Source of the DNA: Streptosporangiaceae bacterium
GTDB taxonomy: Bacteria > Actinomycetota > Actinomycetes > Streptosporangiales > Streptosporangiaceae
DNA length: 14,770 nucleotides
Direction: 5' to 3'
Assembly (NCBI GenBank): GCA_030045295.1
Contig: JASIGD010000215.1
Location: forward strand, 1 to 14,770
Shown here piece after piece: positions 4,070-14,770 of this stretch (positions are counted from its first letter, which is position 1; every line of letters starts with the position of its first letter). Made by a program: the position numbers and the translations under genes. The notes beneath the pieces were generated by a model. The model was not told the origin of the DNA. It saw nothing but the letters and a program-made list of their open reading frames with translations, and searched no databases.

Positions 4070-4528
4070 ATGTCCGCACCGACTCACAATGAGCAGGATC
4101 TCTCCCGGCGCGAGGAGATGTCGGTTTCCGGCGCGGCCATGTCGTCGGCGCCGTGGACCGCCGCCGCGGCGACCGGCGGGGTCGTCGCGGTCGCTGACCT
4201 GGGGCTGCACCTCATCCACGCCAGCTTCGGCGTAGGCGCCCTGAGCGGGTCGCTGGCGCTGGGCGCGGTGGCGTTCTTCGTCGTCGCCGCGGCCGGTGCG
4301 CTGTGGCGGGCCAAGCCGAGCCGTGCCATCCGCTGGGCCAGGGCTCACCCGTGGCGCTTCGCCATCCTGCCCGCGATCGCCTGCGCCGCCGTCGCGCTGG
4401 TCCTGTCGGTCGTCACCGGCGGCGGAATGATCGACGGGGTGCTGAGCGGCCTTTGGCACGGCGGCGCCGTGTACGGCCTGACTGGGGCGGCCGGCCTGGC
4501 CAGCAAGTCGAGGAAGCCGGCCAGCTAG
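4070..4528 (+). CDS. Small multi-pass membrane protein, function unknown
   Basis: This is a 152-residue protein of unrecognised family. A short polar N-terminus (1-27) is followed by about four hydrophobic segments (28-48, 56-79, 96-117, 120-143) and a basic C-terminus (SKSRKPAS). His47 and His50 (LHLIH) lie within or next to the first helix, and His130 precedes the last. The ATG at 4070 is preceded at a workable distance by AAGGGCAGGG. An in-frame TTG at 4052 would add six residues but overlaps that purine tract. The TAG stop shares the four bases CTAG (4525-4528) with the stop of the convergent thioredoxin gene. No function can be assigned. Confidence 0.65.
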   Translation: MSAPTHNEQDLSRREEMSVSGAAMSSAPWTAAAATGGVVAVADLGLHLIHASFGVGALSGSLALGAVAFFVVAAAGALWRAKPSRAIRWARAHPWRFAILPAIACAAVALVLSVVTGGGMIDGVLSGLWHGGAVYGLTGAAGLASKSRKPAS

Positions 4529-5133
4529 GCGGCGCTTGCTGACCGGTTTCCGGTGGCCAGGGCGATGCCATGGTGGATGTCGGCGAGCGTAAGCGCGCCG
4601 AAGACGCGATCGACGACCTGGTGCCTGGCGTTGAGGAAAAAGGTTTGCGGCAGCGCGGCGACGCCGTAGGCGGATGCGGCGATGATCCCGGGATCCCAGC
4701 CCACCGGATAGGTGACGCCATGGTCACGGGTGAACGACAGCGCGTTGGCCACGACGTCGTTCTCGTCCAGCCCGACGAGTGCGACCTTGCCGTGCTCGGA
4801 TCGGTAGAAGCTGGCTAGCAGCGGGGTTTCCTGCTTGCACGGGTCGCACCAGGACGCGAAGAAGTTCAAGATAAGCGGTTTGCCGCGGTAGTCGGCGAGC
4901 GAGACCCGCTGCCCGGAATGGCCGAGTACGGGGAGGCTGAACGCCGGCGCCACGGGGTCGGCGGCCGGCTTGGCCGAGCCCGCGGCGCCCGAGCCCAGGC
5001 CGACCAGGACGATTGCGACCAGCGACGCCGCGACGCACAGCGCGACGATTCCGGTGGCGAGCTTGTGCGTACGTGCCGTTCGCCGCATCTCGCCGATGGC
5101 GCCCGCCCACGTCCGCTGTCCCATACCGGTCAC
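4525..5133 (-). CDS. TlpA/ResA-like membrane-anchored thioredoxin
   Basis: This 202-residue protein is an extracytoplasmic thiol-disulfide oxidoreductase of the TlpA/ResA/AhpC-TSA-like group. One N-terminal helix (about 25-46) anchors it, and the thioredoxin fold covers about 60-195. The redox motif is WCDPC (Cys96, Cys99) in FFASWCDPCKQETP, and the cis-proline is Pro162 in ALPQTFFLN. Such proteins reduce apo-cytochrome c or CuA cysteines; given the oxidase operon about 4 kb away, CuA or cytochrome maturation is a reasonable inference only. GTG at 5133 overlaps the kinase TGA as GTGA, a coupling arrangement that supports this start; ATG at 5124 is the alternative. It is the last gene of the regulator-kinase-thioredoxin operon and ends convergently in the shared CTAG. 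Confidence 0.85.
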   Translation of the reverse strand: MTGMGQRTWAGAIGEMRRTARTHKLATGIVALCVAASLVAIVLVGLGSGAAGSAKPAADPVAPAFSLPVLGHSGQRVSLADYRGKPLILNFFASWCDPCKQETPLLASFYRSEHGKVALVGLDENDVVANALSFTRDHGVTYPVGWDPGIIAASAYGVAALPQTFFLNARHQVVDRVFGALTLADIHHGIALATGNRSASAA

Positions 5134-6332
5134 GGCTTTCGTGCGAGTTCGTCGTCGGCGGCGTCCGCCCGGATCGGCGCCGACGACGGGAGCGCCAGCG
5201 GTCCCGTAGGCCCGGGCAGCCGCAGCTCGAACTCGCTGCCCCGGCCGGGGCGGCTGCGCACCAGGACCTCCCCGCCGTGCGCGCGCGCTACCGCCTGGAC
5301 CAGCGCCAGTCCCAGGCCGGTCCCGCTGGGGTGGTTGCCGTCACCACTGCGGAACCTGTCGAACACGTGCGGCACCAGGTCGGCCGGGATGCCCTGGCCG
5401 CCGTCGGCCACGAACACGCGGACCGGCATGCCGTATTCGCCCGCCACGACCGACAACCTTATGACATCGCCGTCACCGGTGTGCCGCACCGCGTTCTCCA
5501 TTAGCGCGTCGATGGCCAGGCCCAGCCTCTCCCGGTCCGCCTGCACGGTGGCCTTGTCCAGCCGGCCGAGCTGCCAGCGGCGATTGACGGTAGGCCGCCA
5601 CCTGCGCAAGGTTTCCACGATGAAGGTGTCCAGCGCGACCGGCTCGAGGCGCAGGAACTCCGGGCCCTCGGCGGCCGCGATGACCAGCAGCCGCTCCGCG
5701 ATCCGGCGCAGCCGGTTCAGCTCGCCGAGCACCACCTGGATGTCGTTCCCCTCCGGCCGGCCCGCCAGGTCGCCGGCCAGCAGTTCGGCGTGCCCCATCG
5801 CGATGGTGATCGGCGTGCGGAGCTGATGCGAGGCGTCCTGCAGGAACCTGCGCTGCATGGTGAGCAGCCGGGCGTTCTGCTCACCGACCAGGCGGGACTC
5901 CTGCTCGGCGGCCAGCTTACGCCGCGCGTGCCAGGCCACAGCGACGAACAGGGCCGCCATCAGCGGGACCTCGCTCAGCTCGGCGGCCGGTTCTGAGCCG
6001 CGGACGACGGCCAGGCCGGTACCCGCGGCGGTCGCCGCCATGACCAGGCCCAGCACCCAGAGCGTGGGTCCGAGCGCCCAGATGCGGAACCCGTACAGCA
6101 GCGTGAAGCTGATCCAGATCAAGTGGAAGGGGATTGCCTCCCAGCCGGGATAGGCCAGCAGGAGGATCAGGTTGATCGCGGAGAAGACCGCCCACGCGGC
6201 GTCGAGCAACCCGGGCCGGAACGGCCAGCTGAGCCCGATGGCGGACCTGCTCAGCCTGACGGCGGACCGGCCGAGCCCGGAGATGCGGTCGGCGCTCCCG
6301 TCGTCAGTAGTCGGCGAGCTGATAGCCTTCAC
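5130..6332 (-). CDS. Membrane sensor histidine kinase
   Basis: This 400-residue kinase has four predicted helices (about 42-62, 66-82, 89-110, 121-135) with very short loops, so it probably senses something in or at the membrane rather than through a large external domain. A DHp domain follows with phospho-acceptor His169 in DASHQLRTP. The ATPase domain has Asn280 (ENAVRHT), the G1 box DGGQGIP (310-316), the F-box region HVFDRF and the G2 box GTGLGLAL (337-344). The GTG start at 6332 overlaps the response regulator gene by 29 nt, and the TGA end overlaps the thioredoxin GTG by 4 nt. The stimulus cannot be read from sequence. The linkage to a thioredoxin and a CtaG-like gene suggests a redox, respiratory or copper cue, which is inference. 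Confidence 0.9.
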   Translation of the reverse strand: MKAISSPTTDDGSADRISGLGRSAVRLSRSAIGLSWPFRPGLLDAAWAVFSAINLILLLAYPGWEAIPFHLIWISFTLLYGFRIWALGPTLWVLGLVMAATAAGTGLAVVRGSEPAAELSEVPLMAALFVAVAWHARRKLAAEQESRLVGEQNARLLTMQRRFLQDASHQLRTPITIAMGHAELLAGDLAGRPEGNDIQVVLGELNRLRRIAERLLVIAAAEGPEFLRLEPVALDTFIVETLRRWRPTVNRRWQLGRLDKATVQADRERLGLAIDALMENAVRHTGDGDVIRLSVVAGEYGMPVRVFVADGGQGIPADLVPHVFDRFRSGDGNHPSGTGLGLALVQAVARAHGGEVLVRSRPGRGSEFELRLPGPTGPLALPSSAPIRADAADDELARKP

Positions 6333-7050
6333 CGCGAATCGTCTTGATCAGGTCGAAGCCCAGCTTCGACCGCAAGCGCCGCACGCATACGTCGACCACG
6401 TTGGAGCCGGGGTCGAAGTCGTAGCCCCACACGGTAGCGAGCAGCGTTCCCTTGGATACCGACTGGCCTGCGTGTTCGGTCAGCTCCCTGAGCAGCAGGA
6501 ATTCGAGCCGCGTCAGCGGCACCGGGCCGTTCCCGATGTCCGCGACGAGCCGCCCGACGTCCAGGACCAGCGCTCCGGCCGCGATCACCTCGCCGCCTGC
6601 CGGGGCCGCGTTGGGCCGAGCCGCGTCCTCGCGGGGATGCGCGTCCACGCGCAGCCTGACCCGGGCCAGGAGCTCGGCCAGCGAGAAGGGCTTGGTCAGG
6701 TAGTCCTGGGCGCCCCGCTCCAGGCAGCCGACCTTGGTCGCCACATCGGCCAGGCAGGACAGCACGATGACCGCCTGGTCCTGCCGGTCGCTCAGCAGGC
6801 GATCCAGGAACTCCCGGCCCTCCAGGTCCGGCATGACCAGGTCGAGGATGATCAGGTCGAAGTGATCGGCCAGCGCCTGCCGCAGCCCCGTCGCTCCGGT
6901 GCTCGCGAACTCCGTCACGTACCCGGCGGCGGTCAGAGCCCGGCCGATGAAGGAGCGGATCTGGGGTTCGTCATCGACGATGAGGATGCGTTTCGCGGTC
7001 CGGTCCGGCCCCGGGTTTACCGCAGTCCGCGCCGCTCCGTCGTGCGACAT
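6304..7050 (-). CDS. OmpR/PhoB-family response regulator
   Basis: This 248-residue two-domain regulator is the likely partner of the adjacent kinase. The receiver domain (about 20-135) has acidic pair Asp26-Asp27 (IVDDEP), phospho-acceptor Asp70 (LDLVMPDLEG), Ser98 at the switch position and Lys120 (LTKPF). The winged-helix effector domain (about 150-248) shows LTRLEFLLLRELTEHAG, then VWGYDF and VVDVCVRRLRSKLG, followed by IRGEGYQL, all standard for OmpR-type DNA binding. ATG at 7050 is preceded by GAGG about 10 nt upstream. It is first in a three-gene operon and divergent from the CtaG-like gene across 239 bp, so it may control both directions; no repeated binding half-site stood out there. 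Confidence 0.92.
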   Translation of the reverse strand: MSHDGAARTAVNPGPDRTAKRILIVDDEPQIRSFIGRALTAAGYVTEFASTGATGLRQALADHFDLIILDLVMPDLEGREFLDRLLSDRQDQAVIVLSCLADVATKVGCLERGAQDYLTKPFSLAELLARVRLRVDAHPREDAARPNAAPAGGEVIAAGALVLDVGRLVADIGNGPVPLTRLEFLLLRELTEHAGQSVSKGTLLATVWGYDFDPGSNVVDVCVRRLRSKLGFDLIKTIRGEGYQLADY

Positions 7051-7289
7051 ATGCCCGCTACCTCGGTCCGTGTCGTGCGGCCTCGGGCGGCAGGCCTTCC
7101 GCGACGGGGCCAGAGCAGTACAGTCCTCCCCAAAGGCGATCGTGCCCGTGATACCGGGCTCGGGTCAAGCGGCAGGTCAGGGTGGCGGGCATTGTTACGG
7201 CCCTGTCACACAATCGGTTGCAATTCTTACCTGGCGGCATCGGGCCACCCCTGGCCTTCAAGCGGAGCCCTGGGTTAGCTTGTCGTCTC
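7051..7289. promoter_or_regulatory. Divergent intergenic region between the response regulator and the CtaG-like gene
   Basis: This 239-bp stretch must carry promoters for both divergent units. On the plus strand TAGCTT (7276-7281) fits TAnnnT and ends 8 nt before the ATG at 7290, with no Shine-Dalgarno sequence, suggesting a leaderless transcript; its -35 is not convincing. An AT-richer patch (about 7191-7230, containing TTGTTA and TTGCAATTC) stands out against the GC-rich surroundings. It could hold a regulator site or the minus-strand promoter. No clear direct repeat or palindrome was found. Confidence 0.3.
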
Positions 7290-8258
7290 ATGGAAGCGAA
7301 GCTGCGCGATAACGCGGACCCGTCACCGCCCCGACGCGGGTCACGCCGCTGGCTGGCGGCGGCCGGAGCCGTGCTCATCGTGGCGTGCCTGGTGCCGCCG
7401 ATCGGCGTTCTCGCGCGGCGGTACCTGTTCGTCGAGTCGATCCAGTTCTGCGTGTTCGCCATGGCCGGCCCGGCCCTCATCGTGCTTGGAGCGCCCTGGC
7501 GCACCCTTCGCCTGTCAACCGGCGAGGCCCGTCTCGTCGACCGGCTGGCCGGTGCACGGCGGCGTCGGCCGCAGATCATCTGGGCGCTGGGTTACCTGAT
7601 CGCGTGGGTCGTGATCTGCCTGTTCTGGAGGCTGCTGCCCATTCTCGACGCGCTGGCCCGCCACCCCGCCCTGGTCGCGGCGGAGGCGATCACGCTGTGC
7701 GCCGCCGGAATCGGGCTCTGGCTAGAGCTGGTGACCTCGCCGCCGCTCGAGCCGCGGCTCACGCGTGCGCAGCGCGGGCTGATCGCGACGCTGGCCATGT
7801 GGTCCATCTGGGTTGCCGCCTACCTACTGGGATTCGCGGGCCATCCCGTGGTGCCCGCCTACGACCCGCCGGGCGGTCACCTGACCCCGGTCGACGACCA
7901 GGAGATCACGGCCTTCGTGATGTGGGCCGTGGCCGCCGCCTCGTTCATCCCGGTCATCGCCGTGGCGTTGCTCGCCTGGACGAAAGACGATGCCGCGCCC
8001 GCGGAACCCGCCGACGCGACGCCGTATCCCCGCGTCCGGGGCTGGGGAAGACCGGCGCGCGACTCCCGCGCCGCGCCACCAGGCCTGACAGACGCGTCAA
8101 CCGGGGCTGGCGCCGCACCCGGGGCTGCGCCTGACCCGATCCTGGCCAGCGGCTCTCAGCCGGGCAGGCCCGGAGGCGCCACGTCGGCGGACAGCGACTT
8201 ACTGGCCGCGTCGATCATGCCGTCGATCGTGGCGCGCTCCCCGTCGAGCACGCGCTGA
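7290..8258 (+). CDS. CtaG-like (caa3-type) cytochrome c oxidase assembly protein
   Basis: This is a 322-residue membrane protein with six clear helices (about 21-42, 50-69, 95-115, 125-147, 164-184, 206-230). FAMAGPALIVLGAPW (56-70) matches the 'a.PllvlGaP' helix of the caa3 CtaG family, and DQEITAFVMW (203-212) matches its 'DQ.lgg.iMW' motif. Family members aid assembly or copper loading of aa3/caa3 oxidases. The His residues often found before the 'PllvlG' helix are not present here (VESIQFCVF), so the copper role may differ. A low-complexity Ala/Pro/Gly tail (about 232-322) has no obvious function. ATG 7290 was chosen over in-frame GTG 7182 because the helix set begins cleanly and a -10-like TAGCTT lies 8 nt upstream. 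The last 103 bp overlap the convergent gene. Family identity is likely, not certain. Confidence 0.7.
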   Translation: MEAKLRDNADPSPPRRGSRRWLAAAGAVLIVACLVPPIGVLARRYLFVESIQFCVFAMAGPALIVLGAPWRTLRLSTGEARLVDRLAGARRRRPQIIWALGYLIAWVVICLFWRLLPILDALARHPALVAAEAITLCAAGIGLWLELVTSPPLEPRLTRAQRGLIATLAMWSIWVAAYLLGFAGHPVVPAYDPPGGHLTPVDDQEITAFVMWAVAAASFIPVIAVALLAWTKDDAAPAEPADATPYPRVRGWGRPARDSRAAPPGLTDASTGAGAAPGAAPDPILASGSQPGRPGGATSADSDLLAASIMPSIVARSPSSTR

Positions 8259-8776
8259 TCACGGTGCAGCTGCGCGGTGGCGAGGCGGACCGCTGACGGC
8301 GTGCGCGCGAGCAGCAGCGTGGCGACGTCGGTCTGCACCCGCTGGGCGTCCGGGAACCCCCAGGTGACCAGATCGTTCACGGTCGTGTCCAGATGGAACG
8401 AGAACAGCGACTCGGGGACCTGGTACTGGACGAGGTCGTCCATGGGCATGCTGTTAGCCGGGGAACAGTTCGCCGCGCCCGTGACGGCGATGCTGACCGC
8501 GGTCTTGGTGTCATGGCTGGCCCCGGACTGGATCTCCTGCAGCGCGGTCAGCGACTCGCTGACGCCGCCGGCGCACGATTCGATGTCGGACTTCATCTCC
8601 TGCACTACTCCGCGCAGGTCGGATGCGCGTTCGGAGGTGGACGGATGATGGGGGATCGCAACCAGCGTCATCCCGACGACCAGTACCCCAGCCCCCGCGA
8701 GCATCCACCGCGGAGTGCGCAGCACTGGCCAGCCCGAAAGCCGCCTGGGTCCGTCCCCGGTCGGTGCTGCCGTCAT
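8156..8776 (-). CDS. Exported, single-helix-anchored protein with two cysteines, function unknown
   Basis: This 206-residue protein has a short cytoplasmic N-terminus, one membrane helix (about 24-41) and an extracytoplasmic domain with exactly two cysteines (Cys68 in ESCAGGVSESL, Cys104 in GAANCSPAN), likely a disulfide. The domain appears helical, with MDDLVQYQVPESL and WGFPDAQRVQTDV as distinctive segments. I do not recognise a characterised family. ATG 8776 was chosen because GGAGGA (minus strand, 8786-8781) lies 4 nt upstream of it. In-frame ATGs at 8842 and 8839 would add 22 or 21 Arg/Ala-rich residues without comparable ribosome-binding sites. It converges on and overlaps the CtaG-like gene by 103 bp at the 3' ends. 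TATGAT on the minus strand (8843-8838) could be its -10. Confidence 0.65.
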   Translation of the reverse strand: MTAAPTGDGPRRLSGWPVLRTPRWMLAGAGVLVVGMTLVAIPHHPSTSERASDLRGVVQEMKSDIESCAGGVSESLTALQEIQSGASHDTKTAVSIAVTGAANCSPANSMPMDDLVQYQVPESLFSFHLDTTVNDLVTWGFPDAQRVQTDVATLLLARTPSAVRLATAQLHRDQRVLDGERATIDGMIDAASKSLSADVAPPGLPG

Positions 8777-8780
8777 CGGT

Positions 8781-8786
8781 TCCTCC
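8781..8786 (-). promoter_or_regulatory. Strong ribosome-binding site GGAGGA that decides the start at 8776
   Basis: On the minus strand GGAGGA-ACCG-ATG gives a near-perfect Shine-Dalgarno sequence 4 nt before the ATG. It is the reason for preferring 8776 over the upstream in-frame ATG codons. Confidence 0.6.
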
Positions 8787-8922
8787 AGGGCCGGCCGACC
8801 ACGGGTACCGCACTGGGTGGCCGCCCGGTCCGCCGCCATCATAAAGGTGTTTTCCGCAGCGCGGACGCCGGCCGCTCCGGCCCGCCGGGGCCACGGTGAC
8901 GGCAGATCCCTGCTGCAAACGG

Positions 8923-9045: not shown

Positions 9046-9088
9046 GAGGTTGCCTCGGGCCACCGGTCGATTCGATGATCGACCCGAG
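9046..9088 (+). promoter_or_regulatory. Leader hairpin with a competing small stem upstream of the oxidase operon
   Basis: CTCGGG (9054-9059) can pair with CCCGAG (9083-9088), and TCGAT (9067-9071) with ATCGA (9078-9082), making an 11-bp hairpin with a 7-nt bulge on the 5' side and a 6-nt loop. A smaller stem, GAGG-ttg-CCTC (9046-9056), uses part of the same left arm and so excludes the outer stem. No T-tract follows, so it is not a standard intrinsic terminator. It may be an mRNA-stability or regulatory structure, or the perfect dyad GTCGAT/ATCGAC (9066-9083) may bind protein. Confidence 0.4.
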
Positions 9089-9179
9089 CAGGCATCAAAC
9101 CGGCTGGGCCGCGACGTCTACCGCACGGCCGGTCCCCTGCGTTCAGCCTTGCGCTCAGAAGAAGCGAGGTGGTGATCGA

Positions 9180-9911
9180 GTGTCCGTGCCTGCCCGAGCG
9201 GCGGCTTTGATCGTGGCCTTCCTCCTCGTGGTCGGGTTGGGGGTGTTCGTTGCCTACTACTACATAGGCTCGGCGACAACCCAGCTGACCACTGTTCACT
9301 ACGCCGCCTCCCGCGGCACGGTCCACGTGGTTCTTCAGGAAGACCCGCAGAACAACACCGCGACCAGGCCGGACTGGGTGAGTTATTACACCCAGGACCC
9401 GACGAGCAAGCAGTGGATCCACACGACGCTGTTCTCGGTGCCGGCCAACACGAGGGTTGACGTAACCATCTACGGCTACGACGGCTGCACGCCGCTGCGG
9501 AACAATTACTGGAGCAAGGTCCAGGGCACCCTTGGCGACACCGTGACCGTGCAGCAGTTCGACAAGAACAACCATCCCATCGGGGGACCGAAGACGACGG
9601 GATTGATCAACTCGTGGTCGGACTGCAACGTGGGGCACACGTTCGCCATCCCGGACCTGGGGGTGTTCGTGCCGGTCGCCTCGCCCAACGCGGAGAACTC
9701 GGTGAACAACCTGTGTAGCTCGTCGCCGTGCACGCCCACCTCGGGTGGCGCGTACTCGCTGGAGACGTTCAGCTTCATGTCTCCGGCCCAGACCGGCCCG
9801 TACCGCTGGCAGTGCCTCATCCCGTGCGGCGGCGGATTCCTCCACGGTAACGGCGGTCCGATGCAGACCCTCGGCTGGATGACGGGCTTCATGTACGTGG
9901 ACGCGACATGA
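9180..9911 (+). CDS. Membrane-anchored cupredoxin-like protein of the oxidase operon
   Basis: This 243-residue protein has one N-terminal helix (about 7-30) and a beta-rich extracytoplasmic domain. Cupredoxin features are His153 in GHTFAIPDLGV, the usual first copper His, and a C-terminal ligand loop containing Cys212, Cys216, His222 and Met228. The loop reads C-x3-C-x5-H-x5-M, resembling but not equal to the CuA loop of subunit II (C-x3-C-x3-H-x2-M) and longer than the usual blue-copper loop. Four more cysteines (103, 149, 179, 184) could form disulfides. It may donate electrons to subunit II, deliver copper, or act as an extra subunit. GTG 9180 was chosen because AGGTGG lies 7 nt upstream; in-frame ATG 9075 adds an unlikely segment covering the leader hairpin. 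Its stop overlaps the subunit II start as ATGA, which ties it to the oxidase. Confidence 0.7.
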   Translation: MSVPARAAALIVAFLLVVGLGVFVAYYYIGSATTQLTTVHYAASRGTVHVVLQEDPQNNTATRPDWVSYYTQDPTSKQWIHTTLFSVPANTRVDVTIYGYDGCTPLRNNYWSKVQGTLGDTVTVQQFDKNNHPIGGPKTTGLINSWSDCNVGHTFAIPDLGVFVPVASPNAENSVNNLCSSSPCTPTSGGAYSLETFSFMSPAQTGPYRWQCLIPCGGGFLHGNGGPMQTLGWMTGFMYVDAT

Positions 9912-10894
9912 CAGCGGCCGACACCCCAGCGGAAGTCGGCGGAGACGCCAAGGCTGAGCCGCCGCACGGTTGGCGCTTGTTCTTCATCTGGCTCATCCTG
10001 TCCCTCGCCGCCAGCCTGGTCATCTGGTTCGCCTGGAAGCCCCACCTGCCGCCCGGCGACATGTCGAGCTCGGCCAGGCACCAGCAGTTCGACATCGCGG
10101 TGCTGGCGGTGGCCGGCGCTCCGGTCGTCATCGGCGTGGTGCTCTACTTCATCTACGCGATCGTGGTCTGGCGGGCCAAGCCCGGCGACGACAGCGACGG
10201 CGCCCCGATCCACGGCAACACCGCCGTCCAGGCGACCTGGATCATCGGAACCTCGGCGATAGTGCTGTTCCTGGCGGTGTTCGGCACGGTCGAGCTCATC
10301 GGGCCGGCCGGCGCGGGCGCCGGCGAGGGCCCGTCGCCGATCTGGACGCTGGCCGGGACCAACTCGGCCACCTGGACTCCCGGTAACAACCACATCCTGC
10401 AGGTCCAGGTGATCGGCCAGCAGTGGGTGTGGACCTACCGGTACCCGCAGTTCGGCGGGTTCGAATCGACGGTGCTGGACCTGCCGATCAACACGCCGGT
10501 GGAGTTCCACGTCACGTCGCTGGACGTGATCCACAGCTTCTGGGCCTACAAGCTCGGCGTGAAGGCCGACGCCAACCCGATGGTGGACAACGTGGCCTTC
10601 ACCACGCCGGAAGCGCTCGGCGGGTTCGAGGTCCGGTGCAACGAGCTGTGCGGCATCTGGCACGGCGCCATGTACAACTCCGGGCAGGTCATGACCCAGT
10701 CCGGGTTCGAGACCTGGGCCACCGGCGTGCGGGCCAAGGAGCAGGCATCCGGGGTGCTTGCCGCGCTGCCTCCGTTCGCGTTGACCTACGACCCGACCGT
10801 GATCCCGCAGCTCGGCAAGAACCTGGTCAAGATAGTCGGCGTCACCGGTGCCGCGGGCTACTTCTACGGACCCAGCAACCCGGTGCAGCCATGA
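9908..10894 (+). CDS. Cytochrome c oxidase subunit II with complete CuA site
   Basis: This 328-residue protein receives electrons from cytochrome c or a cupredoxin at the dinuclear CuA centre and passes them to subunit I. All CuA ligands are present: His209 (VIHSFW), Cys244, Glu246 (backbone ligand and Mg-site residue), Cys248, His252 and Met255 in CNELCGIWHGAM. The aromatic electron-entry stretch QQWVWTYRYP is at 171-180. Three hydrophobic segments precede the soluble domain (about 24-43, 66-88, 108-132); the usual number is two, so the first may be an uncleaved extra helix. There is no lipobox and no fused cytochrome c domain. A C-terminal extension of about 60 residues follows the CuA loop. 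The ATG overlaps the cupredoxin stop (ATGA). Confidence 0.92.
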   Translation: MTAADTPAEVGGDAKAEPPHGWRLFFIWLILSLAASLVIWFAWKPHLPPGDMSSSARHQQFDIAVLAVAGAPVVIGVVLYFIYAIVVWRAKPGDDSDGAPIHGNTAVQATWIIGTSAIVLFLAVFGTVELIGPAGAGAGEGPSPIWTLAGTNSATWTPGNNHILQVQVIGQQWVWTYRYPQFGGFESTVLDLPINTPVEFHVTSLDVIHSFWAYKLGVKADANPMVDNVAFTTPEALGGFEVRCNELCGIWHGAMYNSGQVMTQSGFETWATGVRAKEQASGVLAALPPFALTYDPTVIPQLGKNLVKIVGVTGAAGYFYGPSNPVQP

Positions 10895-10959: not shown

Positions 10960-12939
10960 ATGGCTATCGAGGTCCAGCCTGAGCGAGCAGAACCCACGGG
11001 CCGTGGTCCCGAGGTCCCGGCCGCCGGGCGGCCCTGGTGGCTGCGCCCGGGCGTGCACACCGGCGTGATCGGCGCCGTGATCGGCTACTTCTTGGGTCAC
11101 TGGCTCGGCAACTTCCTCGGCGGCGGGTACGCCCGCAGTGCCCTGGCCGACACGAACGACGTGGCGATCGTGCTCGGGTACGTCTTCGGGATAATTGGCT
11201 GGCTGGCCGGGCTCGGCGTGTTCAACGACCTGCTCGGGCTGATGGTGGGCAGGCCGCTGCCCGAGGAGCCCAGGCTGTACGGCGCGGAAGACCCCGGCCT
11301 GGCCAAGTACTTCAGGTACACGCTCGACCACAAGGTGGTGGGGATCCAGTACCTGTTCGGGATGATCGGGTACTTCCTCACCGGCGGACTGTTCGCGATG
11401 GCCATCAGGACCGAGCTGCTGTCGCCGACCTACCACATCATCGGCCCCGAACAGTACCTGATGGTGGTCGGCGAGCACGGCACGATGATGATGATGATGA
11501 TGTCCTCGGTCATCCTGGGGCCGTTCGGCCAGTACTTCGGCCCGCTGCTCATCGGCTCGAAGCGGGTCGCGTTCCCGCGGCTGGAGGCGCTCGGCTTCTG
11601 GCTCACCCCGGCCGCATACGTGATCTTGTTGTCCGCCGTCCTGATGGGCGGGTTCCCCACCGGCTGGACCGGCTACGAGCCGCTGGCCACGCAGGCCACG
11701 CAGGGCATGGACGCGTACTTCGTCGCGTTCGGCCTGATGGGCATCTCGATGATCCTGGCCGGCTTCAACATGATCGTCACGGTCATCAACTACCGCGCGC
11801 CCGGCATGCGCTGGGGCCGGCTGCCGGTGTTCGTCTGGTCGATGTTCACGGTGTCGTTCCTGCAGGTGCTGGCGGTTCCGGTGCTGGTCGGCGCCTGTTA
11901 CATGGGCCTGACTGACCGGACCTTCCAGACCGCGTTCTTCACCAACCAGCTCGGCGGCTCCAGCTACCTCTGGCAGAACCTGTTCTGGTTCTTCGGCCAT
12001 CCCGAGGTGTACATCCTGGCCTTGCCCGGCTTCGGCGTGATCTCCGAGATCGTCTCGGTGTTCTGCCGCAAGCCGCTGTTCGGCTACAAGGTCATGGTGG
12101 CCGGGATGTTCGGCGTGGCCATCCTCAGCTGGTTCGTCTGGCAGCACCACCTGTTCGACAGCGGGATCAACCCGGACATGCGGCCGCTGTTCATGCTGAC
12201 CACCGAGCTGATCTCGATCCCGACCGGGTTCATCTTCCTGGTCGGCATGGGGACGTTCTGGAAGGCGAAAATCAGGTTCACCATTCCGATGCTGTTCGCG
12301 CTGGCCTTCTACTTCAACTTCCTGCTGGGCGGGATCAGCGGCGTGTTCCTGTCCGACGTCCCCGCGGACACCACCGAGCACGGTTCCTTCTTCGTCATGG
12401 CGCACTTCCACTACACGATCATGGGCGGCCTGATCTTCGCGTTCTTCGGCGGCATCTACTACTGGCTGCCGAAGATGTTCGGAATCAAGCTCAACGAGAC
12501 GCTGGGCAAGATCCACTTCTGGACCATGTTCATCTTCTTCAACTCCACCTTCCTGCCTTTGTTCGCGCTCGGCATGGCGGGCATGCCGCGCCGGGTGTTC
12601 GAGTACGCGCGGAACCTGGAGACGCTCAACGACTGGGTGTCGATCTCCGCCTTCCTGCTGGGCGGCTCGATCCTCATCTTCCTGATCAACTTCGTCATGT
12701 CGATGCTGTTCTGGCGGGAGCGCGAGGTCGGCAACCCGTGGCGGGCGCGCAGCCTTGAGTGGCAGCTGTCCACGCCGCCGCCGCCGGAGAACTTCAAGCG
12801 GGTGCCGGTGATCTTGTCCAGCCCCTACGATTACGGCAACCCGGACGCCTTGCCGGTGGCCGACCTGAACCCGCCGCTCGGCGTGGTCGGATCCGCCTAC
12901 TCAGGAGCAGGGGCCCGAGCGGCTGGAGTGGAGGCGTAG
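10960..12939 (+). CDS. Divergent heme-copper oxidase subunit I with altered proton-channel residues
   Basis: This 659-residue catalytic subunit has two extra helices (about 33-54, 66-95) before the conserved core that starts near YFRYTLDHKVVG. Catalytic residues are present: low-spin heme ligand His173 (EHG), CuB ligands His347 and His396-His397, Tyr351 and Glu349 in GHPEVY, heme ligands His482 and His484 (AHFHY), Arg544-Arg545. From His347 to Arg545 the spacing equals that of Rhodobacter subunit I as I recall its numbering. On that alignment the K-channel Lys is Ile425 (PTGFIF), the Mg-site Asp is Gly475, the D-channel entry Asp is Arg202 (IGSKRVAFP), and two D-channel Asn are Gln191 and Glu209; a third Asn is kept as Asn270. 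Met176-181 form a six-Met run. GHPEVY places it near A1-type oxidases. Identity as an oxidase-superfamily subunit I is secure; oxygen versus another substrate is not settled by sequence. Confidence 0.93.
   Translation: MAIEVQPERAEPTGRGPEVPAAGRPWWLRPGVHTGVIGAVIGYFLGHWLGNFLGGGYARSALADTNDVAIVLGYVFGIIGWLAGLGVFNDLLGLMVGRPLPEEPRLYGAEDPGLAKYFRYTLDHKVVGIQYLFGMIGYFLTGGLFAMAIRTELLSPTYHIIGPEQYLMVVGEHGTMMMMMMSSVILGPFGQYFGPLLIGSKRVAFPRLEALGFWLTPAAYVILLSAVLMGGFPTGWTGYEPLATQATQGMDAYFVAFGLMGISMILAGFNMIVTVINYRAPGMRWGRLPVFVWSMFTVSFLQVLAVPVLVGACYMGLTDRTFQTAFFTNQLGGSSYLWQNLFWFFGHPEVYILALPGFGVISEIVSVFCRKPLFGYKVMVAGMFGVAILSWFVWQHHLFDSGINPDMRPLFMLTTELISIPTGFIFLVGMGTFWKAKIRFTIPMLFALAFYFNFLLGGISGVFLSDVPADTTEHGSFFVMAHFHYTIMGGLIFAFFGGIYYWLPKMFGIKLNETLGKIHFWTMFIFFNSTFLPLFALGMAGMPRRVFEYARNLETLNDWVSISAFLLGGSILIFLINFVMSMLFWREREVGNPWRARSLEWQLSTPPPPENFKRVPVILSSPYDYGNPDALPVADLNPPLGVVGSAYSGAGARAAGVEA
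11485..11502 (+). repeat. Six tandem ATG codons inside subunit I
   Basis: Six uninterrupted ATG triplets encode Met176-Met181, two residues after the low-spin heme ligand His173. It is a short trinucleotide repeat, so slippage could change the Met count in steps of one without breaking the frame. Confidence 0.85.
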
Positions 12940-12942
12940 GCC

Positions 12943-13620
12943 ATGGCTGAGGCTGACATGTCGGCGTTCACGCCGGCCGAGACGGAAGCCGCGCGGGCGG
13001 CCGAGGAGGAGGGCTTCTACCACGAGGCGGGGATCAACGCGGCCTGGACGGGTTCCCGGCTGGCGATCGGCGGGCTGGTGTTCCTGTACGCCTGCTTCGC
13101 GTTCGCCTACTTCTACCTGCGGTCACTGAACTCCGCGGGCCGGTGGGCCAACACCGACTTCCGCGGGCCGTCGACGTTGCTCGGCACGATCATCATGCTG
13201 GCCATGCTGACCAGCGCCTTCGTGAACTACTACGGACTCCAGCGGATCAAGTCCGGGCACAAGGTGGTCTGGCAAGCCTGCGGGGTGGCGGCCATGCTCC
13301 TCGGGCTCGGCGCGGTCGTGCTGCAGCTCATCGAGCTCATCCACTTGCCGTTCCCGCCGGGCAGTTCGGGCTACGCGAGCGTCTTCACCGGCTTCTACCC
13401 GGTGTTCGTGGTGACGCTGGTGGGGGGGCTGATCTGGCTGGAGATCCTGCTGGTCGGGTCCCACTCCATCCCGGCCATATCGTTCGTGGAGCAGCCGCCG
13501 ACGTTTGCCGAGGTCCGCAAGGTGCAACGGTTCCAGGCGTCGCTGAGCAGTTTCACGACGGTCTGGACCTTTATGGCCCTGATGGCGCTGCTGTTCTGGT
13601 TCCTGTTCTACGCTTTGTAG
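12943..13620 (+). CDS. Cytochrome c oxidase subunit III
   Basis: This 225-residue protein has five hydrophobic helices (about 37-59, 77-97, 110-131, 146-172, 203-224), the short five-helix bacterial form of subunit III. Glu131 in QLIELIH corresponds to the conserved buried Glu near the entrance to the oxygen/D-path region, and SGYASVFTGF matches the 'YGSvFF..tGfH' helix. The His pair usual in that helix (GFHGLHV) is replaced here by Tyr152 and Phe155 (GFYPVFV). The ATG lies 3 nt after the subunit I stop, with GGAGG 8 nt upstream, so translation is probably coupled. Family identity rests on position, length, helix pattern and these partial motifs. Confidence 0.85.
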   Translation: MAEADMSAFTPAETEAARAAEEEGFYHEAGINAAWTGSRLAIGGLVFLYACFAFAYFYLRSLNSAGRWANTDFRGPSTLLGTIIMLAMLTSAFVNYYGLQRIKSGHKVVWQACGVAAMLLGLGAVVLQLIELIHLPFPPGSSGYASVFTGFYPVFVVTLVGGLIWLEILLVGSHSIPAISFVEQPPTFAEVRKVQRFQASLSSFTTVWTFMALMALLFWFLFYAL

Positions 13621-13656: not shown

Positions 13657-14004
13657 GTGCACGTTCTGAGCTCGGCTCCGCTGGCCGACAGCGCGTGGAG
13701 CTTCGGCGGGTCGATACTGACCTTCGCGTTCCCGATGATCTTGTTCATCGCGGTCGCGGCCACGCTGTGGGTCCTGTACACCAAGCCCGAAGTGGTACCC
13801 GGGCAGCCGGCCGGGTCTCCCGAACGACCGGTGTCCTACACTCCCATGCCTGGCCGGCCCGCGGTCGAGGTGGCCGGCCCGCGTGACCCAGCCGCGGCCC
13901 AGGGTGCCCAGGCGGCCGCGGGCCAACCGGGCCAGGCCCCGGCCGAACAGGGCGAGGCGAGGATCGGCGACGGCGAGGCAGCCAGGACCGAGGACGGGGA
14001 GTGA
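13657..14004 (+). CDS. Small one-helix protein of the oxidase operon (possible subunit IV analogue)
   Basis: This 115-residue protein has a short N-terminus, one membrane helix (about 17-41, ending [11 protein letters not shown]) and a long Pro/Ala/Gly/Gln/Glu-rich, probably disordered tail. Many bacterial oxidases carry a small one- or two-helix accessory subunit at this operon position, so this role is inferred from location. The GTG at 13657 is preceded by GAAAGGGA at about 8 nt. An out-of-frame ATG at 13650 is not used. Its TGA overlaps the ctaB GTG (GTGA, 14001-14004). The tail is compositionally simple and may vary between strains. Confidence 0.65.
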
Positions 14005-14770
14005 CCGCTGCCCCTGCGCTCCCAGCACTTGACCACCGGGGTGCCCCTCCCGGTGGCCGGCGCCCGGTGCGGGTCATCGCGAACGCGCTCGTCGCGCTGA
14101 CCAAGCCGCGGATCATCGAGCTGCTCCTCGTTACGACGGTCCCGGCCATGCTGCTGGCCCAGCGCGGCCTGCCGCCGCTCCAGCTCGTCCTGGTCACGCT
14201 GGTCGGCGGCACGCTGGCCGCGGGCAGCGCCAACACGATCAACTGCTACCTCGACCGCGACATCGACGCGGTGATGAAGCGGACCTCGCGCCGCCCGCTG
14301 GTGGTCAACGGGCAGGGCGTCATCAAGCCGTGGGAGGCGCTGGCCTGGGGGATCGCGCTCGGCGCCGGCGCCACGCTGCTGCTCGGCCTGATGGCCAACT
14401 GGCTGGCGGCGGCGCTGGCCGACGCGGCGATCCTGTTCTACATCTTCGTGTACACGCTGCTGCTCAAGCGGCGCAGCCCGGCCAACATCGTGATCGGCGG
14501 CGCCGCGGGCTGCTTCCCGGTCCTGGTCGGCTGGGCGGCGGTGACCGGCACGGTCAGCCTGCCCGCCGTGGTGCTGTTCGCGGTGATCTTCTTGTGGACC
14601 CCGCCGCATTTCTGGGCGCTGGCCATGAAGTTCCGCAAGGACTACGCCGCCGCGAACGTGCCGATGCTGCCGGTGGTGGCCTCGCCCGCCGCGGTCGCGC
14701 GGAAGATCCTCTGGTACTCCTACGCCATGGTGGCGGCCACGCTGGCCCTGATCCCGTACGCGGGCTGGAT
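14001..14770 (+). CDS. ctaB: Protoheme IX farnesyltransferase (heme O synthase), 3' end outside window
   Basis: CtaB is a membrane UbiA-family prenyltransferase that attaches a farnesyl group to the heme b vinyl, giving heme O, the precursor of heme A or the heme used directly by the oxidase. The visible 256 codons show a polar N-terminus, [19 protein letters not shown] (33-51), the first Asp-rich motif [20 protein letters not shown] (81-100, with Asn81, Asp85 and Asp89), the helix [20 protein letters not shown], then [10 protein letters not shown] and [17 protein letters not shown] (210-226), all characteristic of CtaB. The GTG start overlaps the stop of the small subunit as GTGA, so the gene is translationally coupled to the oxidase. 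No stop occurs before the window end. Identity is secure. Confidence 0.93.

Follow-up and report, generated by a model that had tools for sequence, protein, structure and literature searches.

Exchange of conserved proton-channel residues, with an apparent inward move of the D-channel acid, in an A-family oxidase subunit I encoded by a Streptosporangiaceae bacterium

Subunit I (CoxI) of a heme-copper oxidase from a Streptosporangiaceae bacterium, encoded at positions 10960-12939 of the forward strand of a 14,770-nucleotide stretch of DNA (contig JASIGD010000215.1; hereafter the window), combines an intact active site with proton-feeding residues that are exchanged in an orderly and conserved way, and the enzyme can be regarded as a natural counterpart of well-known laboratory mutants. 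As judged from aligned sequences, the acid of the D-channel has moved seven residues inward, the acid at the mouth being exchanged for one at the asparagine gate of the same channel. The reading that we prefer, to which we assign a probability of roughly one half, is that of a cytochrome c-dependent O2 reductase with re-engineered proton uptake from the cytoplasm via the altered D-channel, in which pumping would be reduced or absent. The means by which oxidases keep chemical and pumped protons apart are debated, and much of the argument leans on laboratory mutants at Asp132, Asn139, and Lys362 (Rhodobacter sphaeroides numbering, used below for sites; residues carry window numbers). Many related natural sequences carry changes at all three of these positions together, and an intermediate set lacks the lysine only.

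The reading frame is open throughout and encodes 659 amino acids with a match to COX1 (PF00115, 413.9 bits); the score against TIGR02891, 559 bits, is below the cut-off of 670.75. The first-pass annotation had called the protein an A1-like oxidase, and membership of the A-family was borne out by the COX1 chains in the PDB, where ba3 chains matched at E 1.3e-6 or weaker versus 6e-120 to 2.7e-51 for the other chains. All of the best 50 Foldseek matches listed for CoxI belong to the A-family, and the model is nearest to COX1 of Paracoccus and R. sphaeroides, which form the first rows among the matches listed with TM-scores (target length) of 0.88-0.90. Canonical actinobacterial CtaD, of the mycobacterial and Corynebacterium bcc-aa3 type, is the best PDB match (41-42 percent identity in the fold search) and carries the same catalytic ligands but, unlike the window protein, it has the Asp and Asn pair and the Lys; the text of PMC8795186 gives CtaD Asp116 and Lys341 and CtaC Glu110 as the proton entries in C. 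glutamicum. The closest named proteins and loci, among the best matches listed, are from Streptosporangiaceae bacteria and Trebonia kvetii (85-91 percent identity). A plasmid search with CoxI returned 909 records, of which the best 40 are 41-44 percent identical and mostly annotated as ctaD.

Two extra transmembrane helices are predicted in the region of residues 32-95 (11053-11244, forward strand), before canonical helix I (residues 124-152), the predicted helical segments being 32-54, 67-85, and 89-95. According to the text of Degli Esposti et al. (2021; PMC8239418), two such helices mark a basal "2TM" clade of COX1 that includes iron oxidizers, and on helix prediction the window CoxI possesses this feature. 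The likeness extends to an A-family COX1 with caa3_CtaG often nearby; the proposed link of the window enzyme to iron oxidizers is one of architecture. That paper also states that K- and D-channel variants exist, detailed in its supplements, and its text as covered names neither the exchange at Asp132/Asn139 nor a Glu at site 353. Neither feature is described in the open-access article text that was covered. The window enzyme belongs to the A-family and to a clade type that is already known. Its CoxI has two additional helices at the N-terminus, its subunit II carries CuA, and a cupredoxin-like gene adjoins; the relocations were not found described in the text covered.

Residue assignments were checked by alignment with two kinds of reference, canonical CtaD of related genomes and the mycobacterial COX1 chains in the PDB. 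The gap-free spacing to R. sphaeroides claimed previously, from the HPEVY motif to the Arg pair, was reproduced with an offset of 63 relative to the R. sphaeroides motif numbers, which residue lists in PMC12901375 and PMC3084760 support; the Asp132 site was anchored in the alignment by the AFPR motif. For the window, all five substitutions proposed are correct by alignment, namely Lys362 to Ile425 (12232-12234), Asp132 to Arg202 (11563-11565), Asn121 to Gln191, Asn139 to Glu209 (11584-11586), and the Mg-site Asp412 to Gly475 (12382-12384), as is the retention of Glu349 and Tyr351 (the Glu286 and Tyr288 sites, 12004-12012), Asn270, Thr415, Thr422, and Ser362. The first-pass annotation had overlooked two helix-VIII residues, Glu416 and Ser419 (12205-12216; R. 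sphaeroides sites 353 and 356), Gln395 next to the CuB ligand His396 (12142-12144), Asn453, Asp466, Thr486, Gln108 of subunit II, the two extra N-terminal helices, and the inward move of the D-channel acid; all these coordinates are on the forward strand.

The pattern exceeds what chance would give: in the 80 family rows taken from loci, Glu209 and Glu416 are present in 80 (all being readable at site 209), Lys425 is absent from 80, and site 202 is Arg in 69, Lys in 10, and Gln in 1. Gln191 and Ser362 were rejected as clade features on family counts: the 80 loci rows have Asn (72), Gln (7), or Gly (1) at site 191, the 210 swap rows defined below, a set rich in close kin of the window, have Gln (126), Asn (83), or Gly (1), and Ser362 occurs in 11 of the 80 loci rows. 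A separate observation concerns six consecutive Met residues (176-181; 11485-11502) closely following His173, a ligand of heme a. Stretches of at least five Met occur somewhere in the protein in 153 of 210 swap rows, 0 of 122 step-1 rows, and 0 of 14 canonical rows.

Conservation was assessed in 354 aligned rows, comprising the window, 78 of the 80 loci, 35 rows from loci of other genomes, and 240 proteins that were the best matches of two protein searches; left out were eight repeat loci (before the 80 rows were counted), duplicates, a fragment (L077), and a frameshifted gene (L104). Since the rows are related and were picked by similarity to the window or to locus L130, the counts are not independent. 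Three sets were defined: the swap set by Glu209, the step-1 set by Asp202 together with Asn209 and Glu416, and the canonical set by Lys425. The swap set holds 210 rows, window included, all with Glu416 and Gln395 and none with Lys425; site 202, readable in 209 of them, is Arg in 188, Lys in 11, His in 6, Glu in 2, and Gln and Gly in one each, and never Asp. Lys425 is likewise absent from all 122 step-1 rows, 11 of which have Gln395. The canonical set (14 rows) has Asn209 in 14, Asp202 in 13 with one gap, Leu, Phe, or Met at site 416, and Ala at sites 395 and 419 throughout. Asp202 accompanies Asn209 in 136 rows, and three pairings are absent from the 354 rows: Asp202 with Glu209, Asn209 with any of Arg, Lys, His, Gln, or Gly at 202, and Glu416 with Lys425. 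Eight rows fall outside all three sets. One of them, P0229, has Lys at 416 and no Lys at 425; two others (L105 of genome G006 and L109 of genome G003) represent a third CoxI type with the motif GHPVVY, in which Val stands for Glu286, Glu for Lys362, Ala or Arg for Asp132, and Thr for Asn139; their matches to actinobacterial aa3 models are below cut-off.

Catalytic ligands, Glu286, Tyr288, Asn207, Tyr33, and the Arg pair are kept in the swap set in 210 of 210 rows or in 209 with one gap (Glu349 and Tyr351 each in 210), and His26 in 208 of 210. The substitutions are genuine and characterise a clade; they do not reflect local decay. That the gene is a decaying or assembly-only paralogue is hardly credible: another COX1 (PF00115) is present in 12 of 12 genomes of relatives, chosen from the loci, but the ligands and the ordered pattern are conserved over 210 rows with genomes drawn from two phyla, and CoxII and the cupredoxin-like gene lie nearby. 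The second COX1 is readable at the Lys site in 11 of these 12 genomes (14 proteins) and bears the canonical Lys in all 11; its gene in G012, the remaining genome, is broken across two reading frames.

The claim that both canonical proton entries are gone as such holds, and other routes or poorer pumping are a reasonable expectation from it, but the D-channel acid is not simply lost, since a Glu occupies the Asn139 site. An alignment with the acid and Lys shifted to nearby positions of the same channels had been named as grounds for giving up the claim; such a shift was found for the D-channel (Glu209) and not for the K-channel, where no shifted Lys is seen and a Glu (Glu416) lies nine residues earlier on the same helix in 210 of 210 rows. 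A salt bridge at site 202 is not required, because Glu, Gln, and Gly also occur there. If the acid has merely changed places, the enzyme could still be a normal pump that translocates about one proton per electron. The strict coupling of sites 202 and 209 over 354 rows and the retention of Glu286, Asn207, Tyr33, and the Arg pair favour this, as does the likeness to the D132N/N139D double mutant, which, in work attributed to Branden in 2006, reportedly regains pumping, which suggests that a swap of this kind can still deliver protons and even pump them. That mutant is said to have kept Lys362, the subunit-II Glu, the Ser365 site, and the Mg-site Asp412, but in the window group Lys362, mostly the subunit-II Glu, the Ser365 site (Val428 in the window; Val in 188 of 210 swap rows), and Asp412 are changed as well, the last being Gly in 208 swap rows (Ala 1, gap 1) and in 117 step-1 rows (Asp 4, gap 1). 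We regard normal pumping as unlikely.

Conservation on the K-channel side can be read differently, with the D-channel closed and protons passing instead by way of Glu416, Ser419, and Asn453, a new path that might start at the outer side, like that of cytochrome c-dependent NO reductase; turnover would then be weakly electrogenic or not at all. In the sets with Glu416, Ser419 is present in 332 of 332 rows, Asp466 in 330 (two gaps), and Asn453 in 313. The mouth residue is Arg, Lys, or His in 205 of 209 readable swap rows, and the Ser201 site, Ser in 108 of 122 step-1 rows, is the less polar Met in 180 of 210 swap rows. The last point also counts against our preferred reading, as it could mean that the upper D-channel is closed; the site is also variable among the 14 canonical rows (Thr 6, Gly 4, Ser 3). 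However, 122 rows pair Glu416 with an intact Asp132 and Asn139, so that Glu416 goes with the absence of the K-channel Lys and not with the change in the D-channel; moreover, a closed channel leaves the conserved Glu209 unexplained, and uptake from the outer side would presumably waste proton motive force. A closed D-channel is on this evidence quite improbable.

The motifs by which other members of the superfamily are recognised were inspected as well. The A1 K-channel given in the text of PMC3084760 (Lys354, Thr351, Ser291, and Tyr280 in P. denitrificans) corresponds to Ile425, Thr422, Ser362, and Tyr351 in the window, without the Lys, and three of the eight D-channel residues listed there (Asp124, Asn199, Asn113, Asn131, Tyr35, Ser134, Ser193, and Glu278) are kept, the window residues being Arg202, Asn270, Gln191, Glu209, Tyr131, Gly212, Met264, and Glu349. 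The alternative K-channel of B-type oxidases replaces Lys, Thr, and Ser by Thr, Ser, and Tyr, and the window has Ile425, Thr422, and Ser362. Thermus ba3 resembles the window enzyme in that Asp132 is replaced by Arg and Lys362 by a residue other than Lys (PMC12901375, Table 2). It differs in using Met for Asn139, Ile for Glu286, and Thr/Ser along its K-route, where the window has Glu, Glu, and Ile/Thr. A B-type identity was rejected on these motifs.

NO reduction had been suggested as another job for the enzyme. Missing pumping residues, which are typical of NO reductases, are a point in its favour. Neither NO reductase motif given in the text of PMC3084760 (H-X-Arom-X-E and HH-X-Arom-Arom-X17-E) occurs in CoxI, which has HPEVY and HHLFD instead; its helix-VIII Glu lies 19, not 21, residues after the second His, and with this difference of two in spacing Glu416 would be a tentative counterpart of the helix-VIII Glu of NO reductases. 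With the His-Tyr pair intact, Tyr351 present in 210 of 210 rows, and CuA present, NO reduction or another non-oxygen function is very unlikely, and that suggestion is not supported.

The catalytic ligands are all preserved, as are CuA, the Arg pair, Glu286, and Tyr288, which makes O2 reduction likely. Under our preferred reading, electrons would enter via CuA of CoxII, possibly with the assistance of the cupredoxin-like protein, and O2 would be reduced at the heme a3-CuB-Tyr site, whose residues are all in place. The branch as a whole has no K-channel Lys (lost or never possessed, depending on the root) and carries the helix-VIII pair Glu416 and Ser419 instead, and in the nested group of the window the mouth Asp is exchanged for Glu209 at the asparagine gate. 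Chemical protons may then come from the cytoplasm mainly through the altered D-channel, from Glu209 to Glu349, with Glu416 as a putative donor near the active site, and pumping would be reduced or absent. We expect uptake of this kind with reduced pumping, at a moderate level of confidence, because the natural enzymes carry analogues of all three mutant changes plus a new Glu. According to the text of PMC12901375, whose authors prefer a different pumping route, O2 reduction survives and pumping is lost when Asn139 is replaced by Asp, Thr, or Ser, and the P-to-F step returns when such a mutation is introduced into a Lys-to-Met mutant. These R. sphaeroides and Paracoccus mutants share with the window enzyme an acid at the asparagine gate, which has been paired experimentally with removal of the K-channel Lys, but have Asp instead of Glu, no Arg at 132, and no Glu353; the positive mouth residue and the use of Glu count against the preferred reading. 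A bolder version, which we offer tentatively and as the less probable one, is that a large natural group of A-family oxidases dispenses with both textbook inputs for protons and uses a third kind, in which Glu416 with Ser419 and Asn453 would replace the K-channel and a D-channel driven by Glu209 would replace that of Asp132, tuned for non-pumping turnover against a steep pH gradient. Names of organisms and samples (bog, palsa, Acidithrix, Ferrithrix) suggest acid habitats for carriers, which need not hold for all. Pumping in the swap and step-1 sets could reveal how protons are divided between the channels, and any advantage of decoupling in such habitats.

The order of the changes was read from a tree of 78 hand-picked rows, built by a quick method with no bootstrap and rooted on the two divergent A-type rows L105 and L109. 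It contains a clade of 64 rows with Glu416 and no Lys (SH-aLRT 99), within which a clade of 41 rows with the 202/209 swap is nested (SH-aLRT 99). Glu416, Glu209, and Gln395 each require one change, and Asp132 and Lys362 two each, the second falling on the outgroup rows, which also lack both. The swap is derived for any root outside the swap clade. Whether the Lys was lost rather than gained depends on the outgroup: should the extra-helix branch be basal, the polarity of the Lys change reverses, and the text of PMC8239418 argues for such a position, grouping it with iron-oxidizer COX1 below A1/A2 when family C is the outgroup. Step-1 rows come from Chloroflexi (the phylum of genome G011) and from proteins that bear the name Ktedonobacterales; a single row each is named Acidimicrobiales and Actinomycetes. 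The oxidase type is uncommon in the phylum of Trebonia (G001), since 7 of 396 genomes drawn from it match at 1e-200, two of which were already known. Trebonia kvetii (G001; L003) has two copies (L111 and L118), 85 and 72 percent identical to the window protein.

CoxI lies in an operon-like run of forward-strand genes. The run begins with the CuB assembly factor CtaG (Caa3_CtaG, 7182-8258; PF09678, 85.3 bits; matched within 8 kb in 52 of 80 loci), followed by a membrane-anchored cupredoxin-like protein (9075-9911, likely start near 9180) and CoxII (9908-10894; PF00116). Downstream of CoxI are a CoxIII-like subunit (12943-13620), found near CoxI in 75 of 80 loci, with a weak PRK10663 match (E 0.00027) and no Pfam match at 0.001; a small protein (13657-14004), possibly subunit IV by position, without a match in family searches and matched within 8 kb in 9 of 80 loci; and the heme O synthase CtaB (14001-14768; PRK04375, 349.6 bits versus a cut-off of 246), cut by the window end. 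CoxII carries the CuA motif CNELCGIWHGAM at 10637-10672, and its CuA Cys, His, and Met columns are conserved in 79 of 79 rows (the fragment L077 left out); the K-channel entry site Glu101 is Gln108 (10229-10231), with Gln in 64 and Glu in 4 of the 79 rows.

The gene order cupredoxin, coxB, coxA, coxC, with a membrane-anchored cupredoxin adjoining subunit II, is that of the aa3/AcoP locus of Acidithiobacillus ferrooxidans as described in the text of PMC4059628, PMC5982212, and PMC2754497. ORF 9075-9911 likewise directly precedes coxB, overlapping the CoxII start, and is predicted to form a helix (residues 3-32) followed mostly by strands. Of the AcoP ligand set C-x6-H-x4-M, the window protein keeps the overall spacing, from C251 to M263, but all 77 rows have Gly (Gly258 in the window) in place of the His, and all share a C-x3-C pair. 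The sole sequence link to AcoP is a weak match to 7z3g (E 0.34, with an unrelated CobN match at E 0.33); 7z3g is not among the best 50 matches listed for either cupredoxin fold search, which weighs neither way. The ORF was rejected as AcoP for want of the ligand His. It could be a copper carrier, although SCO1-type proteins are likewise encoded near the oxidase copy of Trebonia kvetii at L003. Positions 9636-9881 hold a His (His188), Cys247-x3-Cys251, and two Met (Met263 and Met269), with no conserved second His, a combination that differs from the AcoP ligands and falls short of a complete CuA site.

Electron donors were sought by Pfam among 19 ORFs beside L023 (Acidithrix) and L003 and one ORF of L053; neither a cytochrome c nor another cupredoxin was matched, and several of these ORFs have no family. 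On the reverse strand of the window, a protein near CtaG without a family match (8156-8842) has matches within 8 kb in 31 of 80 loci, many at 24-37 percent identity. Also on the reverse strand, a ResA/TlpA-like thioredoxin (by family match) and a sensor kinase and response regulator (read from translations) adjoin the oxidase genes at 4525-7050, with matches near CoxI in 38, 18, and 19 of the 80 loci, respectively.
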